Below are positions 17,392 to 28,737 of a stretch of DNA of 35,361 nt, in pieces. The stretch lies in the IMG/VR virus record IMGVR_UViG_3300027763_000137, positions 1-35,361 of that record; one strand, written 5' to 3'. Positions within the stretch are counted from its first letter, which is position 1, and each line of letters starts with the position of its first letter. The stretch comes from a virus. Both the position numbers and the translations under genes were made by a program. Below the pieces are notes generated by a model. The model did not search any database. It was not told the DNA's origin and was given only the letters and a program-made list of their open reading frames with translations.

Positions 17392-17673
17392 CTAGCCGAT
17401 ATCGGACGGCTCGACAACCATAACCTGTGGCCCGATGTCAGGTCCGTCAATCCGCATCGCATCATCCACCAGCATCCTCAGCACAGCCGATGCAGGACAC
17501 CCTCTAGAAGCAAGCCAGGCGGCTTGTGCTGGCGTCAGCGAGACTTGGCAGGTGTGAGCACGGCCAGACGGTGAAAGGCGCTTAGGGCGGGTTTGGCGAG
17601 GCTTGGCGGGGTCTTTAGGATTGGGATTGATCCAGCGCTTGAATTCTTGGTTCTCTTTTGGGGTCTTGATCAT
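17392..17673 (-). CDS. Small putative DNA-binding protein (93 aa)
   Basis: Very basic, lysine/proline-rich N-terminus (to about residue 40). A C-terminal segment HTCQVSLTPAQAAWLASRG and SAVLRMLVDDAM follows, with the strand-helix-helix look of a ribbon-helix-helix domain. Start ATG 17673 has GGAG 9 nt upstream. It lies directly after terminator A; the ribosome site begins where the T-run ends, so it may be read by leakage through that terminator. It could be a regulator acting at the late operon boundary, which is inference. Confidence 0.65.
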   Translation of the reverse strand: MIKTPKENQEFKRWINPNPKDPAKPRQTRPKRLSPSGRAHTCQVSLTPAQAAWLASRGCPASAVLRMLVDDAMRIDGPDIGPQVMVVEPSDIG

Positions 17674-17692: not shown

Positions 17693-17715
17693 AAGCCCGC
17701 CAGTGCGGCGGGCTT
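17693..17715 (-). terminator. Terminator of cassette A
   Basis: Stem AAGCCCGCC / GGCGGGCTT with a 5-nt loop, followed on the minus strand by TTTCTTTCT. The sequence up to the loop is nearly identical to terminator C at 18569-18593, including the flanking CCAGAAAGAAAG. Confidence 0.85.
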
Positions 17716-17727
17716 GGGGTGAGGGGG

Positions 17728-18057
17728 TCAGGCTTGATGTGAGTAGTCGCCGAGGTCCTCGGCCATCTGCTCGGCCTCCTCGCGGCTGATGCGACCGACA
17801 GGGCGGGCTTCTTCTCGGATGATGCTCTCGATGTCGCGGATGACCATAGCCTGCATGGCGACGTCGGCGGGCGTCATCGCGGCGACCGAAGCGCGCATTT
17901 GAGCGTCGCAATGGGCGTCATAAGCGGCGCGGTCGTCACGCGTCAGCCGTCCATACCATGCATTTTCTGACGCCCGGTTGCGTGACGCGAGCGCCTTGCT
18001 TGGCTTCTTTGCGGTTTCGGCGATGGGCTTGCTGGCGAGGATTTCAGTGATGTTCAT
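17728..18057 (-). CDS. Cassette A small protein (109 aa)
   Basis: ATG at 18057 with GGGAG 7 nt upstream, the leader shared by the cassettes. The longer frame to 18129 would run through the promoter. The sequence is helical and charged: a basic N-terminal third (AKKPSKALASRNRASENAW), then DDRAAYDAHCDAQMRASVAAM and an acidic C-terminus (EEAEQMAEDLGDYSH). I recognise no family. It is flanked by its own promoter (18101-18129) and terminator (17693-17715), so it is a single-gene transcription unit, probably expressed early. Confidence 0.72.
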   Translation of the reverse strand: MNITEILASKPIAETAKKPSKALASRNRASENAWYGRLTRDDRAAYDAHCDAQMRASVAAMTPADVAMQAMVIRDIESIIREEARPVGRISREEAEQMAEDLGDYSHQA

Positions 18058-18100
18058 TTTCTGTCTCCCTTGCGAGCCGCTTTGTGCTGCCCACATCCAC

Positions 18101-18129
18101 ACTATGCAGCACAGTGGACGCATTGTCAA
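18101..18129 (-). promoter_or_regulatory. Cassette promoter A
   Basis: Minus-strand TTGACA (18129-18124), 17-bp spacer, CATAGT (18106-18101). The spacer ends in CACTGTGCTG as in promoters C and D. Predicted start is about 36 nt before the ATG of cassette A. Confidence 0.85.
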
Positions 18130-18155
18130 GCACAGACGCGAGAAATAAATCTAGG

Positions 18156-18205
18156 GGCTTTGCAAAGCCAGATCAGGCGCGGCTTGTGATCTGTTGAGAG
18201 ATCAC
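18156..18205. promoter_or_regulatory. Upstream dyads of promoter A
   Basis: A perfect 14-bp palindrome GGCTTTGCAAAGCC at 18156-18169, centred about 36 bp upstream of the -35 box. Farther upstream is an inverted repeat GTGATCT / AGATCAC at 18186-18205. The same two elements lie upstream of promoter C. They are candidate operators for a phage or host regulator. Confidence 0.6.
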
Positions 18206-18210
18206 CAAAG

Positions 18211-18236
18211 AAAAAAAACCCCGCCGTAGCGGGGTT
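18211..18236 (-). terminator. Terminator of cassette B
   Basis: Stem AACCCCGC / GCGGGGTT around CGTA, followed on the minus strand by eight T residues. It starts 4 nt after the cassette B stop codon. The 20-base stem-loop is identical to terminator D. Confidence 0.9.
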
Positions 18237-18240
18237 GGGG

Positions 18241-18390
18241 TCAGGCGCCAACAACGGAGATGATCTCCCAGTTGGCGGAGTAGAGCGACCGAGCGTAGAG
18301 CGTGAAGTCGGCCATGTTCTTGACGGTCTTCACGTTGACAAAGGTCTGCTTGAGGATGGGCGAGAAGGTCTTGAAGGTGATGGTCAGCAT
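18241..18390 (-). CDS. Cassette B small protein (49 aa)
   Basis: ATG at 18390 with GGAG 8 nt upstream; 50 codons to TGA at 18243-18241. The product begins MLTITFKTFSPILKQTFVN and ends in a hydrophobic WEIISVVGA. It has mixed hydrophobic and basic residues, no obvious membrane helix and no recognised family. Promoter, ribosome site and terminator all fit it exactly, so the gene is well supported despite its size. Confidence 0.75.
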   Translation of the reverse strand: MLTITFKTFSPILKQTFVNVKTVKNMADFTLYARSLYSANWEIISVVGA

Positions 18391-18431
18391 GTTGGTGTCT
18401 CCCGTTTGCGAGCGGCGTTGCTCGTAGGCCC

Positions 18432-18460
18432 ACTATGCAGCACAGACGATGCACTGTCAA
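18432..18460 (-). promoter_or_regulatory. Cassette promoter B
   Basis: Minus-strand TTGACA (18460-18455), 17-bp spacer, CATAGT (18437-18432). The spacer is the most divergent of the four on this strand, but it ends in the same TGTGCTG. Confidence 0.85.
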
Positions 18461-18486
18461 GCACAGCGTCTATGTTTTTTTTCTGT

Positions 18487-18500
18487 GGCTTTGCAAAGCC
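18487..18500. promoter_or_regulatory. 14-bp palindrome upstream of promoter B
   Basis: GGCTTTGCAAAGCC, identical to the copies upstream of promoters A and C, at nearly the same distance from the -35 box. Degenerate GATC-containing repeats follow farther upstream (18518-18546). Confidence 0.6.
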
Positions 18501-18568
18501 AAATCAGCCGCTAGGTGTGATTTGTCAGCCCAGATCAACCGGCTGATCTGCCTGTGTCTCCAGAAAGA

Positions 18569-18593
18569 AAGCCCGCCAGTGTGTGGCGGGCTT
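18569..18593 (-). terminator. Terminator of cassette C
   Basis: Stem AAGCCCGCCA / TGGCGGGCTT with loop GTGTG, followed on the minus strand by TTTCTTTCT. Beyond it comes GGAGACACAGG, which matches the ribosome site found after terminator A but here has no start codon in range. Confidence 0.88.
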
Positions 18594-18601
18594 GGGGGGG
18601 G

Positions 18602-18805
18602 TCAAAGTGCGTTGGGGTTGGCGAGGTACTTTGACAGGCGCTTGACGTAGGCAGTGGCGTTGGCAACCGAATAGCCCAGCTTGACTTGAGCCGCGATCAT
18701 CTCTGCGGTGCGCTCATTGTTGACGGCGCAGGACTTGGGGCAGAGACGGCCGCTTTTGGTGTCGCAGTTGTTGCAGTGGCCGTATTCGTTCATGGTGCTA
18801 AGCAT
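18602..18805 (-). CDS. Cassette C small cysteine-containing protein (67 aa)
   Basis: ATG at 18805 with GGGAG 7 nt upstream (leader identical to cassette A). The N-terminal third holds HCNNCDTKSGRLCPKSC (residues 10-26), four cysteines in C-x2-C and C-x3-C pairs, a possible small zinc site. The remainder is helical (RTAEMIAAQVKLGY, ATAYVKRLSKYL). I recognise no family. It has its own promoter and terminator. No similarity to the cassette A protein is seen although the flanking DNA is nearly the same. Confidence 0.75.
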   Translation of the reverse strand: MLSTMNEYGHCNNCDTKSGRLCPKSCAVNNERTAEMIAAQVKLGYSVANATAYVKRLSKYLANPNAL

Positions 18806-18848
18806 TTTCTGTCTCCCTTGCGAGCCGCTTTATGCTGCCCACATCCAC

Positions 18849-18877
18849 ACTATGCAGCACAGTGTCCACACTGTCAA
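18849..18877 (-). promoter_or_regulatory. Cassette promoter C
   Basis: Minus-strand TTGACA (18877-18872), 17-bp spacer, CATAGT (18854-18849). The spacer and -35 edge contain a perfect inverted repeat ACAGTGTCCACACTGT (18859-18874), a likely repressor or activator site. Promoter D has the same repeat with one mismatch. Confidence 0.88.
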
Positions 18878-18903
18878 GCACTGTGCTGAAAGAAATATCT
18901 GGG

Positions 18904-18954
18904 GGCTTTGCAAAGCCAGATCAGCCAACTCGGGTGATCTGTTGAAGAGATCAC
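18904..18954. promoter_or_regulatory. Upstream dyads of promoter C
   Basis: Palindrome GGCTTTGCAAAGCC at 18904-18917 and inverted repeat GTGATCT / AGATCAC at 18934-18954. Order and spacing follow the copy upstream of promoter A. Confidence 0.6.
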
Positions 18955-18963
18955 CAAAGAAAA

Positions 18964-18983
18964 AACCCCGCCGTAGCGGGGTT
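18964..18983 (-). terminator. Terminator of cassette D
   Basis: Stem AACCCCGC / GCGGGGTT around CGTA, with a run of A on the plus-strand left flank giving a T-run on the minus strand. Identical to terminator B, including the flanking ATCACCAAAGAAAAA. Confidence 0.88.
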
Positions 18984-18991
18984 GGGGGGGG

Positions 18992-19165
18992 TCAGAGGTG
19001 CCAAGCTGGCTGGCTATGCACCCAATCAAGGGCTTCGTGAAAAGAGGTCCAATTCTTTTCAACTATTTTCCCGTCAACGAAAACGGAATAGGTGGGTTGT
19101 GACCACATGTACTCGCGGCGTTCGTTGATGGAGTAGTTGATCTTCGTGCGGTTGTTGTCGTTCAT
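18992..19165 (-). CDS. Cassette D small protein (57 aa)
   Basis: ATG at 19165 with GGAG 5 nt upstream. The longer frame to 19291 would cross the promoter. The product is polar at the start (MNDNNRTKINYSINERREYM), then has a strand-like YSVFVDGKIVEKNW and a helix SFHEALDWVHSQ. It looks like a small folded alpha/beta protein, but no family is recognised. A single-gene unit with its own promoter and terminator. Confidence 0.75.
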   Translation of the reverse strand: MNDNNRTKINYSINERREYMWSQPTYSVFVDGKIVEKNWTSFHEALDWVHSQPAWHL

Positions 19166-19199
19166 GCTGTCTCCCGTTTGCGTTGCTGTCTGTGCGCCC

Positions 19200-19228
19200 A
19201 TTATGCAGCACAGTGGCCACACTGTCAA
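19200..19228 (-). promoter_or_regulatory. Cassette promoter D
   Basis: Minus-strand TTGACA (19228-19223), 17-bp spacer, CATAAT (19205-19200), the strongest sigma70-like match of the family. The spacer carries ACAGTGGCCACACTGT, the promoter C dyad with one mismatch. Upstream, CATTGCAAAGCC (about 19259-19270) is a half-degenerate copy of the 14-bp palindrome. Confidence 0.88.
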
Positions 19229-19343
19229 GCACTGTGTCGATGTTATTTTTACACCGCATTGCAAAGCCAGATCAGGCGCACTCCTGAACATTTGTTTCGT
19301 ATGTGGATGATCTGTCCGACAGATCAGATCACCCCCAAAGAAA

Positions 19344-19365
19344 ACGCCACCTTGTGAGGTGGCGT
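19344..19365 (-). terminator. Terminator of the primase/helicase operon
   Basis: Stem ACGCCACCT / AGGTGGCGT with a TGTG loop, followed on the minus strand by TTTTCTTT. It lies 300 bases past the primase stop codon, so the transcript from the helicase-primase operon would include the whole palindrome-rich region. Confidence 0.88.
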
Positions 19366-19458
19366 CATCAACCTGATCCCTCAGAGGGGAGACGTCGGGA
19401 CTAGGTACGGGGTCGAGCCCGTGGGAGGAGGGTACAGGTCAGGCGGGGGGAGTCAAGG

Positions 19459-19476
19459 CTATTGGCGCGCCAATAG
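19459..19476. repeat. Perfect 18-bp palindrome
   Basis: CTATTGGCGCGCCAATAG equals its own reverse complement. GAGTC (19451) and GACTC (19487) flank it as a second, outer dyad. Confidence 0.85.
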
Positions 19477-19518
19477 GTTGAAATATCGACTCTTTTAGAT
19501 TTAGAAAAAGACTATCTA

Positions 19519-19536
19519 TCTGGTTATATAACCAGA
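19519..19536. repeat. Perfect 18-bp AT-rich palindrome
   Basis: TCTGGTTATATAACCAGA equals its own reverse complement. Its centre TTATATAA would melt easily. It lies 60 bp from the GC-rich palindrome. Confidence 0.85.
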
Positions 19537-19665
19537 GAACTTCTTTCTTCATTCATAGGTAGTGCGACGCACGTACACCTATAAGGACCCTAGTTGAAGA
19601 ATGAAGGAAGGGGAGGCAAACTGCCGCACTTCCTGTTTTCCAACGAGGGACCTCGCAACCCTAGC

Positions 19666-24138: not shown

Positions 24139-24831
24139 GTGATCGGAAAGAAAAGCCTGAAAGACGCCATCGACGCGCGTGCTCCGAAGTTTATCGTCTA
24201 CGGCGGGTCCGGCGTCGGGAAGACGACGCTGATCGCATCGCTCCATGGCAAGCTGTTGATTCTGTCGGCGGAATCCGGCCTGCTGTCATTGTCGGGCGCT
24301 GACATCGACGCCGATGTGGTCGAGGTCCAAACCATAGACGCGCTGCGATCCGTCTACCAAGAGTTGCGCGCTGGTGACCACGGTTACGACTGGGTCATCC
24401 TCGACAGCGTCTCAGAGATTGCAGAGGTGGTGCTGTCTGCCGAGAAGGCCAAGACCAAAGACCCTCGCCAAGCCTACGGCGCCCTGCAAGACGAGATGGT
24501 CAAGATCATGCGAGCCTTCCGCGATCTCGCCTGCGGCGTCTACTTCTCAGCGAAGTTGAACGCCAACAAGGACGAGGCCACCGGGCGTGTCAGCTACGGG
24601 ATCGGGATGCCGGGGAGCAAATTGGGCGAGGGAATCCCCTACTTGTTCGATGAGGTCTTCCGCATGATCGTCATCGACGAGGAAGACGGGCGAGGCGGCA
24701 AGGTGGCATCGCGCTACCTGCTCACCAACACCGACGGCAAGAGCGTGGCCAAGGACCGTAGCGGTCGCCTGGACGCCCTCGAGGTGGCCGACCTTGGTGC
24801 CATCGTGGACAAGATAAAGGGTGCCCCATGA
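24139..24831 (+). CDS. Sak4-like RecA-fold ATPase, single-strand annealing (230 aa)
   Basis: Walker A GGSGVGKTT (22-30) and Walker B-type WVILDS (85-90) in a small RecA core. It has a KLLILSAESGLLSL strand and loop, and a C-terminal GIGMPGSKLGEGIPYLFDEVF segment seen in phage AAA_24/Sak4 proteins. These stimulate strand annealing and recombination and usually lie next to a DUF669 gene, as here. GTG at 24139 has AGAGGTG 4 nt upstream, the best ribosome site in this operon. First gene of the plus-strand early operon. Confidence 0.88.
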   Translation: MIGKKSLKDAIDARAPKFIVYGGSGVGKTTLIASLHGKLLILSAESGLLSLSGADIDADVVEVQTIDALRSVYQELRAGDHGYDWVILDSVSEIAEVVLSAEKAKTKDPRQAYGALQDEMVKIMRAFRDLACGVYFSAKLNANKDEATGRVSYGIGMPGSKLGEGIPYLFDEVFRMIVIDEEDGRGGKVASRYLLTNTDGKSVAKDRSGRLDALEVADLGAIVDKIKGAP

Positions 24832-25010: not shown

Positions 25011-25523
25011 ATGAGCGATTGGGACAACAACGACGGCGACTTGGGCGCCCTTGGCTTTGACTCTGACACCGTCGAGGCGCCTGAGTTTGTGCTGCTGGCG
25101 GACGGGCGCTACCCACTGATCTGCACGTCGGCCCGCGTGGAGCCGAGCAAGAACAATCCTGCCACTGTCATGGCCAACATCGAGGAAACCGTGGTTGACG
25201 GCCCTGGCGCCGGTCGCAAGGTGTGGTCGCGCTACATCGTGGCCCACGAGAAGCCAGACGTGATGGCCCGTGGTCGCGCCGACGTGAAGCGCATGATGAC
25301 AGCCTACGGGGTCGGCGGTAACAGTCTGACGCCCATGGTCGGCCTCGAGTGCATCGGCGCCATCACCACCGAAGCGGCCAAGGGTGATTTTGCCGCGAAG
25401 AACAAGGTGAGCCGCCGCGAGCCCGCCACCAACGTGGCGAGCAGGCCCGCTGCGAGCAAGCCCGCGCCCGCCACGGCCAAGGCTCCCGCTGGCTTCTTGG
25501 CCAACCGGAAGCCGACGCCATGA
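25011..25523 (+). CDS. DUF669-like protein, probable ssDNA-binding partner of Sak4 (170 aa)
   Basis: Acidic N-terminus (SDWDNNDGDLGALGFD), then a beta-rich core with FVLLADGRYPLICTSARVEPS and GRKVWSRYIVAHEKPDV. This is the layout of the DUF669 proteins that neighbour phage Sak4 genes and are thought to act as single-strand-binding proteins. The C-terminal 45 residues are low-complexity Ala/Pro/Lys. ATG at 25011, with only a weak GAGA ribosome site. It overlaps the next start by 4 nt. Confidence 0.75.
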   Translation: MSDWDNNDGDLGALGFDSDTVEAPEFVLLADGRYPLICTSARVEPSKNNPATVMANIEETVVDGPGAGRKVWSRYIVAHEKPDVMARGRADVKRMMTAYGVGGNSLTPMVGLECIGAITTEAAKGDFAAKNKVSRREPATNVASRPAASKPAPATAKAPAGFLANRKPTP

Positions 25524-25765
25524 TCGTGTGGCAACGGCGGGACGGCACACGGATTGAACTCGACGGGGAGCGCCTTCGGGCGCTTCGCCTTTCTTCCGAG
25601 CAGACGCAGGCAGACGTAGCCGAGCACATCGGCTGCACATCGGCTGCTGTGTCGTCGTGGGAGACCGAGGCCCGATGCCCGTCGTTGCCGCAGATCGAAC
25701 GAATCGTTGACCTCTTTGGCAAAAAACTCGAGCGCACCGGCGCTCTTCGCGTGGTGCGTCCATGA
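25520..25765 (+). CDS. XRE-family helix-turn-helix regulator (81 aa)
   Basis: Residues about 18-65 fit a Cro/CI-type HTH: LRALRLSSEQTQADVAEHIG, then CTSAAVSSWETEARCPSLPQ, then a third helix IERIVDLFGKKL. A short N-terminal strand pair (VWQRRDGTRIELDG) precedes it. There is no second domain, so it is Cro-like in size. ATGA overlaps tie it to DUF669 before and the exonuclease after. Its likely targets are the dyads in the divergent region 24057-24097 or in the cassette promoters, by inference. Confidence 0.85.
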   Translation: MIVWQRRDGTRIELDGERLRALRLSSEQTQADVAEHIGCTSAAVSSWETEARCPSLPQIERIVDLFGKKLERTGALRVVRP

Positions 25766-26738: not shown

Positions 26739-26800
26739 CCAAAGCCGAAGCCCGCCACCTCGCCAGACTGGCGGCAGAAGTCGAGGAGGTGGAGTTGTGA
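26735..26800 (+). CDS. Coupled micro-ORF (21 aa)
   Basis: ATG at 26735 overlaps the VRR-NUC stop (ATGA), and its stop overlaps the methyltransferase start (GTGA). The peptide MTKAEARHLARLAAEVEEVE plus L is a single amphipathic charged helix. The exact overlaps at both ends support translation. It may mainly carry ribosomes across the gap: GAGGAGG just before its end is the methyltransferase ribosome site. Confidence 0.5.
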   Translation: MTKAEARHLARLAAEVEEVEL

Positions 26801-27480
26801 TCGACCTACGCCTTGGCCGATGGCAGGACACGCTGGCCGATGTGACGACGTGTGATGCGGTCATCTGTGACCCGCCGTATTCGGCGAGGACGCATGATGC
26901 GACGAACGACCACATAGCAGGCAGCACCATGCCGGATGGCAGCGATCGTCAGTCGATCGCCTATTCGCATTTCACGTCCGCCGACGTCGTCGAATTCGTC
27001 TCGTCGTGGGCGCCTCGCTGCACGGGCTGGATTGGCGCCATGACTGACGACGACCTAGCGCCAGCATGGAAAGAGGCGTACCGCGCGGCTGGCCTGTATG
27101 CGTTCGCCTCCGTCCCGATCGTCCAGAGGCGCCCCAGGCTCGTCGGAGACGGCCCGTCGTCGTGGGCTGTCTATCTAATGGTCGCTCGCCCTCGCAACCG
27201 CGAGATGGCCACCTGGGGCTGTTTGCCGGGGGCCTACGATGCGCCAACCGTCAAGGGTGCAGGCATCGCAGGCTGCAAGCCCCTCGGCCTCATGCGCGCC
27301 ATCGTCCGCGACTACTCCCGCCCCGGTGACCTCATCGTCGATCCCTTCTGTGGCAGCGGCACGACAGCCATTGCCGCCGCATCCGAAAGCCGCAGATGCA
27401 TCACATCGGAGGAACTACCCGATCACTACGAGATCGCCCGCAAGCGGATCGCAAGGGGCTACACGCCGGATCTGTTCTAG
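26797..27480 (+). CDS. DNA methyltransferase, N4/N6 amino type (227 aa)
   Basis: DPPY at 25-28 and the AdoMet-binding DPFCGSGTT at 182-190. The order, catalytic motif first and FxGxG last, is that of beta-class amino methyltransferases, which modify adenine N6 or cytosine N4. There is a GTG start with GGAGG upstream, and no restriction enzyme gene nearby. As an orphan phage enzyme it probably protects phage DNA from host restriction. The target sequence cannot be read from the protein. Last gene of the plus early operon; I see no terminator hairpin after it. Confidence 0.9.
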   Translation: MIDLRLGRWQDTLADVTTCDAVICDPPYSARTHDATNDHIAGSTMPDGSDRQSIAYSHFTSADVVEFVSSWAPRCTGWIGAMTDDDLAPAWKEAYRAAGLYAFASVPIVQRRPRLVGDGPSSWAVYLMVARPRNREMATWGCLPGAYDAPTVKGAGIAGCKPLGLMRAIVRDYSRPGDLIVDPFCGSGTTAIAAASESRRCITSEELPDHYEIARKRIARGYTPDLF

Positions 27481-27526: not shown

Positions 27527-27554
27527 TTGACATTATTCTGGCACTGCGTAGAGT
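27527..27554 (+). promoter_or_regulatory. Cassette promoter E (plus strand copy)
   Basis: CAGTGC TTGACA (27527-27532), 16-bp spacer, TAGAGT (27549-27554), then GGGCTCAC. The CAGTGC before the -35, GGCACTG in the spacer and GGGC after the -10 match promoters C and D, so it belongs to the same family although it is 8 kb away on the other strand. Confidence 0.7.
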
Positions 27555-27596
27555 GGGCTCACGGCGCCAAACACGGAGCCGCAACAGGGAGACAGA

Positions 27597-27932
27597 ATGA
27601 ACGCCTTTACCGTCATGAGCACCCCCAACACCGCGACCATGCTGGCCATCAAGGCCGAAAACAAGGCCCGGATCAGCAAGTCAAAGGAAGACGCCAAAGC
27701 ACTCGACGCCACTGTCTTGGCTGCTGTCGAGGCCAGATATCTCCGGTGGAAAGAGTCCGGGTCAAAAGAGCCAATGTGCACCGTCGCCGTGGTGGCGTCG
27801 ACGTCGTCTCTTAGTGAAACCGCGCGCGTTCGTGCCTCGCTCAAGCGGCTAACCGAGGATGGAAAGTTGACACGTCGCACCGTTGACTGGTGCGGAAAAG
27901 ACGTCTTCGCATACGCCCCTGCCCACCACTGA
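27597..27932 (+). CDS. Cassette E small protein (111 aa)
   Basis: ATG at 27597 with GGGAG 5 nt upstream; the leader GGGAGACAGAATG matches cassettes A and C. The N-terminal part is helical and charged (NTATMLAIKAENKARISKSK). The C-terminal part looks like a small winged helix: SLSETARVRASLKRLTEDGK followed by strands LTRRTVDWCGKDVFAYAP. A DNA-binding role is possible by that pattern but no family is certain. It is a single-gene unit ending in its own terminator. Confidence 0.72.
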   Translation: MNAFTVMSTPNTATMLAIKAENKARISKSKEDAKALDATVLAAVEARYLRWKESGSKEPMCTVAVVASTSSLSETARVRASLKRLTEDGKLTRRTVDWCGKDVFAYAPAHH

Positions 27933-27957: not shown

Positions 27958-27977
27958 GCCCCGTCAGCCGGGGCTTT
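27958..27977. terminator. Terminator of cassette E
   Basis: Stem GCCCCG / CGGGGC with a 5-nt loop, then TTT on the plus strand. On the minus strand CGATGCGG and TTTT follow, so it may also slow transcription from the convergent ATP-grasp gene. Confidence 0.65.
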
Positions 27978-28020
27978 CGGCGTCAGGGATAACTTTCTCC
28001 GGCAAGCAATAAAAACTTTT

Positions 28021-28701
28021 TCATTTTTTCCTCACAATTTCTAACCAACGAGCGGTAATCAGTTTGATATAATATTCACCCTTCATATTTCCCCAACGAT
28101 AGAAACCCAAAGACCAGCCATCGTTTGCTTCAACGAGAGTTGTTTTTCCATCAACATAGCCGATATCAATAGAATAACCAACAGGAGATGAAAGATAAAC
28201 ACTGATCATTTCTTCAACGGTTTTTACATTTGGCTGCGCTTTATCATCCCCATTATCATATCTTGAATATCCAAGGATTTTCTTATTAAGGATATAAAAT
28301 CTCCACTCAGAAGAAAAACAAACTTTATCTGAAATCCAAACAGGTTGTTTTGGATTTACGACTTCTTCAATATCTGCTCTAATCCCACCTGTAAAACTCT
28401 TTGTATTCTTTGGCTTACAAAACTGGTTTTCTTTTACTTCGCCATAAACTCCACTCCAAACATTTCTGTTTAGGAAACCTTTTAGTTCGGATGGATAAGA
28501 AATATTATCAGGAAGCGTTATATCGTTCAATAAGCAATACTTATTTACAAACTCAACACTTCCAACTGGAACAATAATTTCACTGTTCTGAAACAGTTTT
28601 AGTTCGTCATATGATGACCAGAAGTATGGATAATTGATAGCAGAAGTAATATGTCGTTTTTCTTCTTCCATTACTCTGCCGGATTGCATAAGATATTTCA
28701 T
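28021..28701 (-). CDS. ATP-grasp protein, R2K-like clade (226 aa), AT-rich
   Basis: Pattern of the phage-borne R2K ATP-grasp families: N-terminal region with DELKLFQNSEIIVPVGSVEF, a middle segment GGIRADIEEVVNPKQPVWI, then the ATP-grasp core SEWRFYILNKKILGYSRYDN and the C-terminal GYVDGKTTLVEANDGWSLG with N and D metal-ligand positions. ATP-grasps make amide or peptide bonds; the substrate of this clade is unknown. Coding DNA is far richer in A+T than all neighbours (for example 17 G+C in the 60 bases from 28261), with AAA/TTT-biased codons, so recent transfer is likely. It is alone on the minus strand between plus-strand genes. Confidence 0.75.
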   Translation of the reverse strand: MKYLMQSGRVMEEEKRHITSAINYPYFWSSYDELKLFQNSEIIVPVGSVEFVNKYCLLNDITLPDNISYPSELKGFLNRNVWSGVYGEVKENQFCKPKNTKSFTGGIRADIEEVVNPKQPVWISDKVCFSSEWRFYILNKKILGYSRYDNGDDKAQPNVKTVEEMISVYLSSPVGYSIDIGYVDGKTTLVEANDGWSLGFYRWGNMKGEYYIKLITARWLEIVRKK

Positions 28702-28737
28702 TTATCACCAACTTTTGTATAAAGGAAATTTTCATCA

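Follow-up and report, generated by a model that had tools for sequence, protein, structure and literature searches.

A phage moron is a single gene that sits between core genes and brings a promoter and a terminator of its own; the promoters of different morons are usually unrelated. PeSL (promoter early stem-loop) elements, said to have been described by Arbiol in 2010 and Comeau in 2014, are reportedly composite units of a promoter and a stem-loop that lie between small hypervariable genes. These mobile regulatory cassettes of T4-like phages are credited with gene shuffling between relatives (PMC4503421). In archaeal viruses with a SIRV2-type regulon, a strong promoter that includes a conserved regulatory sequence is common to many small genes unrelated to each other; some of the shared promoters carry inverted repeats thought to bind a repressor, and genes picked by their shared early promoter included anti-defence genes (PMC11065993). 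In Cluster K mycobacteriophages, the short SAS/ESAS repeats stand before many small, different genes, half of the repeats with a 17-bp inverted repeat upstream (PMC3203893). As kinds, mobile promoter-terminator units and early promoter regulons are already known; what is new is the version described here, which is operator-branded, exchanges the ORF only, and is common to phages without detectable core homology.

The locus lies in a 35,361-bp IMG/VR virus record, the whole of which was analysed and is called the window. Taken as a whole, it is best explained, and in our judgement very probably correctly, as an array of independently transcribed single-gene cassettes that forms an exchange platform. 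As in the PeSL system, promoter and stem-loop are joined in the spacer between small genes and one regulatory unit flanks different genes in related genomes. However, PeSL belongs to a T4-like myovirus, whereas the 35-kb record encodes a PrimPol and a terminase about 32% identical to those of Kagunavirus and Jersey; further differences are the operator-like dyad in the promoter spacer, the arrangement of single-gene units in tandem at two loci, one on each strand, and the recurrence of one cargo gene with another operator brand in an unrelated phage. The SIRV2-type regulon is similar in that one strong and conserved regulatory sequence serves a set of small unrelated genes, but its promoters are of the TATA/BRE type, anti-defence activity was tested there while the cargo here is known from sequence alone, and terminators and ORF exchange between fixed flanks were not emphasised. 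SAS is tied to translation starts (GGGATAGGAGCCC-like) and the start sequence here differs; ESAS accompanies one gene family from genome to genome, whereas promoter and ORF reassort here. Morons share the single gene with its own promoter and terminator, but the present locus reuses one lineage-wide promoter/operator unit. Integrons likewise are arrays of single exchangeable genes, but here each gene has its own promoter, the joints are not at one site, and neither an integrase (among the ORFs scanned) nor attC was found.

The best matches of the window terminase large subunit are Kagunavirus, Jersey and K1-type phages, and the low identity to these named phages together with the PrimPol-type primase places the phage in an uncultured group. 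From about 24 kb leftwards, the minus strand carries helicase, primase, the cassettes, terminase and the genes beyond it; from 24.1 kb rightwards, the plus strand carries Sak4, SSB-like, HTH, exonuclease and methyltransferase genes. Read along the minus strand from 19366 to 17693, the array consists of a terminator followed by four repetitions of upstream element, promoter, leader, ORF and terminator. Each of the four ORFs (57, 67, 49 and 109 aa, termed c57, c67, c49 and c109) has its own promoter of the form TTGACA-17-CATA(A/G)T, a GGGAGACA leader and a strong terminator (Table 1), with predicted hairpin energies of the four terminators of -15.6 to -18.3 kcal/mol. The -10 element is CATAAT in c57 and CATAGT in the other three; GGGAGACA lies shortly 5' of each ORF start and, as an 8-mer, is confined on the minus strand to these four genes. 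Between the preceding terminator and the -35 element lie a GATC-containing dyad and TGATCTGGCTTTGCAAAGCC or a near variant.

A sequence-only reading of the same DNA had proposed four small, separately transcribed genes with transcription starts at 19193, 18842, 18425 and 18094. The four promoters were found at the coordinates that these starts imply, with spacers of exactly 17 nt, and separate transcription gains support from a predicted promoter and terminator for each gene. The layout that it described holds for promoter, leader and terminator but left out the TGATCTGGCTTTGCAAAGC element, the GATC-rich dyads and the operator-like dyad in the promoter spacer; its count of four is right for the array but missed a fifth cassette elsewhere (27527-27932, plus strand).

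Table 1. Features of the cassette loci and neighbouring genes in the window; promoters and terminators are sequence predictions.
Feature	Position	Strand	Remarks
Terminator upstream of array	19343-19366	-	After primase and conserved non-coding stretch; same position in L006, L005, L054
c57 upstream element TGATCTGGCTTTGCAATGC	19256-19274	-	
Copies of the TGATCTGGCTTTGCAATGC element	18905-18923, 18488-18506, 18157-18175	-	
c57 promoter	19200-19228	-	TTGACA-17-CATAAT; spacer dyad ACAGTGtggcCACTGT at 19210-19225
c57 ORF	18992-19165	-	57 aa; predicted beta-beta-beta-alpha; model pLDDT 79
c57 terminator	18964-18983	-	Hairpin and T-run
c67 promoter	18849-18877	-	Spacer dyad ACAGTGtggaCACTGT at 18859-18874
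c67 ORF	18602-18805	-	67 aa; Cys-rich stretch HCNNC...CPKSC
c67 terminator	18569-18593	-	Hairpin and T-run
c49 promoter	18432-18460	-	Imperfect spacer dyad at 18442-18457
c49 ORF	18241-18390	-	49 aa
c49 terminator	18217-18236	-	Hairpin and T-run
c109 promoter	18101-18129	-	Spacer dyad ACAATGcgtcCACTGT at 18111-18126
c109 ORF	17728-18057	-	109 aa; predicted all-helical; model pLDDT 83.5
c109 terminator	17693-17715	-	Hairpin and T-run, directly 5' of g93 ribosome-binding site
g93	17392-17673	-	Downstream neighbour of c109, without own promoter; retained in most close relatives
Sak4-like single-strand annealing recombinase	24139-24831	+	Candidate agent of cassette exchange
SSB-like protein adjoining Sak4	25011-25523	+	Weak match
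HTH_31/HTH_3 (XRE-type) regulator	25520-25765	+	81 aa; conserved in relatives
Fifth-cassette promoter	27527-27554	+	TTGACA-16-TAGAGT
c111 ORF, fifth cassette	27597-27932	+	111 aa
Hairpin GCCCCG-TCAGC-CGGGGC after c111	27958-27974	+	Terminator-like by sequence

Having no promoter of its own and starting directly behind the c109 terminator, g93 must rely on read-through; its C-terminus varies among relatives. A copy of its ribosome-binding leader, 96% identical and with no ORF behind it, follows the c67 terminator (18554-18581, minus strand) and by its sequence looks like a recombination scar. On the primase side of the array, a conserved non-coding stretch 3' of the primase (19400-19660), possibly a replication origin or control region, contains the palindromes TCTGGTTATATAACCAGA (19519-19536) and ATTGGCGCGCCAAT (19461-19474); L006 retains the stretch, and L005 and L011 retain part of it. 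In several relatives (L028:5021-7177, also L036, L041 and L023), the primase has been exchanged for a 33-36% identical version; in L028, the replaced primase adjoins a 97% identical terminase, which amounts to a whole replication-gene swap in the same neighbourhood.

The fifth cassette is of related design, with a 16-nt spacer, a TAGAGT -10 element and a TCACGGCGCC leader, and its promoter class is present in 16 viral contigs; a search for homologues of c111 found none. Between it and the next plus-strand gene (MTITECRC...) lies, in reverse orientation, an R2K-clade ATP-grasp gene (28021-28701, minus strand) in AT-rich DNA from about 27985 to 28730. In L005 the MTITECRC... gene directly follows a cassette promoter, and the ATP-grasp gene looks like a recent insertion. 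The fifth cassette is adjoined on its other side by an adenine-type DNA methyltransferase gene (26797-27480, plus strand) that is 40-65% identical among relatives. GATC is enriched between the cassettes of the array (8 sites over the three inter-cassette regions, compared with 1.2 in shuffled sequence), so methylation might touch cassette control.

Conservation within the array is confined to the regulatory DNA. The pattern TTGACA-N17-CATART occurs four times in 35 kb and in none of 100 shuffles. Between cassette pairs of the window, identity is 79-93% from -35 to -10, 58-98% in the leaders and 56-82% in the terminators, while ORF DNA pairs are no more similar than shuffled DNA. For the 17-nt class (20 cassettes), information content averages 1.49 bits/position from -35 to -10 and 0.58 bits/position in codons 2-11. 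The earlier claim that the regulatory DNA is conserved while the products are dissimilar is thus borne out, with flanks up to 98% identical and ORF DNA at the level of shuffles.

Relatives were fetched by primase (11) and terminase (25), and cassettes were compared in the window and 22 other IMG/VR contigs. In the closest relatives, the terminase is 95-97% identical and the primase, where of the same type, 96-97%, and yet c67 and c109 occur in none of them, while c57 (L054, 95% aa) and c49 (L029, 92% aa) were each found once, under a different promoter. The contigs are metagenomic, and the number of cassettes in the array interval, which is one in L006, L007 and L028, two in L016 and L054, four in the window and zero in the distant relatives L014 and L015, hinges for each genome on assembly across imperfect repeats of about 80 bp. 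In L020 a cassette follows g93 instead of preceding it (L020:917-1186), so the array can lie on either side of that gene. The 34 cassettes on the 23 contigs fall into 17 unrelated ORF families by BLAST, or 18 without a doubtful link of c109 to a 93-95-aa family, in which the similarity was weak (46 residues, E ~1e-3) and homology was not accepted; there are 15 classes of upstream segment, 21 of spacer and 12 of leader. The sequence-only reading had held that relatives lacking these ORFs, with random repeats, would speak against it. The ORFs are indeed not kept, but the repeats are strongly conserved, and this combination favours the exchange idea.

The cassette ORFs matched no credible family in Pfam, PHROGs or PADLOC, with nothing above noise. 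There was no match to c109 or a 102-aa cassette ORF in 50,697 phage records and no homologue of c67 in our search; the models of c57 and c109 gave no significant fold match, and near-DNA searches of phage and plasmid collections found nothing. The sole promoter match in 84,980 species genomes, in Gemmiger formicilis, lay in apparent coding sequence with the other elements absent and was judged to be chance, so no prophage or host was identified. Proteins without database matches are what would be expected of chance or base-composition repeats around spurious small ORFs. We consider the likelihood of this negligible in view of the shuffled sequences and of the conservation across 22 other contigs, and several multi-member ORF families are under purifying selection. 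By sequence comparison, dN/dS is 0.08 for c57 and a 70-aa ORF, 0.23 for c49 and 0.22-0.38 for the 102-aa family (0.08-0.5 over the multi-member families); given the values for these four, we regard them as selected proteins, and the cassette ORFs as real genes.

Comparison of flanks and ORFs indicates how the cassettes change. The c49 promoter unit of the window is 94-97% identical to units in L020 and L018, but these precede unrelated ORFs (66 and 52 aa; ORF identity among the three 46-50%). Conversely, the 70-aa ORF family stands under three promoters (L006, L022, L054), and the c57, c49, 91-aa and 102-aa families were also found under different promoters, one ORF family being 93-96% identical although its promoters differ. 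L006 and L028 are 98% identical upstream as far as the TTGACA of the -35 element and unrelated beyond it; in L026 and L029, upstream DNA and leader are 94-97% alike and the ORF is not. Upstream, spacer, leader and ORF segments therefore reassort, with joints at -35, -10, leader and stop/terminator. These alignments give good support to the exchange of ORFs between regulatory flanks that stay fixed. The array might instead have arisen as tandem copies of one ancestral gene and promoter whose ORFs diverged past recognition, and the regulatory units are indeed homologous to each other (those of c67 and c109 are 85% identical over 143 nt). We judge this improbable: ORF DNA is at shuffle level beside flanks up to 98% identical, a near-identical ORF family stands under different promoters, c109 is shared with an unrelated phage, and the predicted folds of c57 and c109 differ (Table 1). 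The regulatory units may well have been multiplied by duplication, with the ORFs imported.

Joints that fall in short promoter, leader and terminator sequences shared between cassettes would fit a Sak4-type annealing protein, and a Sak4-like gene is present in most relatives that cover its locus. The HK620 phage Sak4 tolerates up to 20% divergence in the oligonucleotides that it anneals, and its SSB stimulates it (PMC5928155). The recurrence of joints at the same short sequences, and the conserved palindromes between cassettes (GGCTTTGCAAAGCC and GATC dyads), could also point to a conserved block that serves as the site of a dedicated site-specific recombinase, with integron-like capture rather than general homologous recombination. 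Since the joints lie at several places (-35, -10, leader, stop) and not at one, no integrase match was obtained among the ORFs scanned (a part of those in the window), and Sak4 is sufficient in principle, we regard such a recombinase as very improbable.

The claim of an exchange platform is further upheld by the recurrence of c109 under a foreign promoter system, in addition to the retention by relatives of promoter, leader and terminator DNA around different ORFs. A scan with c109 returned five contigs with an 83% identical protein, two of which share metagenomes with the window relatives L006 and L028. In the three contigs compared in full, there was beyond the c109 unit only one 44-residue match to a window ORF. 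The window terminase was not found in any of these contigs, and none of the window replication genes was detected in this phage group, which has its own terminase and a different kind of primase. In this other group, two single-gene cassettes stand in tandem, with c109 in the second. Each has as its promoter a copy of a 114-119-nt repeat, and the copies are 99-100% identical; the promoter TTGACACGCTGAACGGTATCGTTCACAAT has a perfect 6-4-6 dyad, TGAACG-GTAT-CGTTCA, unlike that of the window. Between the two groups, a solid alignment begins at GGGAGACAG, spans leader, ORF and stop region as far as TGACCC, and ends on both sides. This is the cleanest sign that the moving unit is leader plus ORF, whereas the promoter would belong to the phage lineage; the module has crossed to a phage without detectable core-gene relation. 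More tentatively, it is possible, though we would not call it probable, that portable modules of one gene each (ribosome-binding leader, ORF and stop) form a pool on which the phages of a shared habitat draw. Each lineage would insert such a module into a promoter array with an operator brand of its own, and a captured gene would immediately come under the early-on, later-repressed control of that lineage, with operator half-sites that co-drift within the array.

The brand itself is a dyad, ACAGTG-N4-CACTGT, which fills the spacer between -35 and -10 in the window; it is perfect at two promoters and has one mismatch at c109 and two at c49. Relatives have other half-sites, which still tend to be complementary, as in ACAGTC/GACTGT (L023) and ACAGAG/CTCTGT (L054), although a good dyad is absent from some spacers. 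A permutation test on the three inner pairs gave p = 0.0023 for 16 spacers and p = 0.005 for the 12 that are non-redundant, and shifted axes gave no signal in the same 12-16 spacers; because these sequences are related, the co-variation is suggestive only. The dyad with co-varying half-sites is a new element of this analysis. Lying upstream of the transcription start, it would act as DNA, and its sequence suggests, most simply, a putative repressor site. The one clear candidate for such a repressor is the XRE-type protein; it need not serve the cassettes, because it is also encoded in the array-less distant relatives L014 and L015.

In the mechanism that we propose, the regulatory part (upstream element, near-consensus σ70 promoter with its spacer dyad, GGGAGACA leader and terminator) is fixed and a small accessory ORF variable. 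Host σ70 RNA polymerase would transcribe each cassette alone soon after infection, and the terminators would insulate neighbours, so that replacing any ORF would have no polar effect. Later, all cassettes would be silenced through the shared dyad by a repressor, which is perhaps the XRE-type protein, and the phage's Sak4-type recombinase would make the joints at short shared sequences. The least certain step concerns the cargo, most likely accessory host-takeover or anti-defence genes. Early expression is a reasonable inference from the near-consensus σ70 promoters, and a role in host takeover or counter-defence is the leading guess by likeness to archaeal viruses. The platform might also be real but a late or constitutive control unit with cargo of another kind (superinfection exclusion, lysis timing or metabolism), as the position of the array between replication and packaging genes could suggest. 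Near-consensus σ70 promoters, however, need no phage factor, and the promoter-sharing small orphan genes of archaeal viruses are early anti-defence genes (PMC11065993); we consider a late or constitutive unit unlikely, while giving it real weight.

On the reading of the locus as an exchange platform, the cassettes show how a small phage trades single genes without disturbing their regulation. The promoter brand outlasts the gene swaps and offers a sequence-only route to list accessory, possibly anti-defence, genes of uncultured phages.
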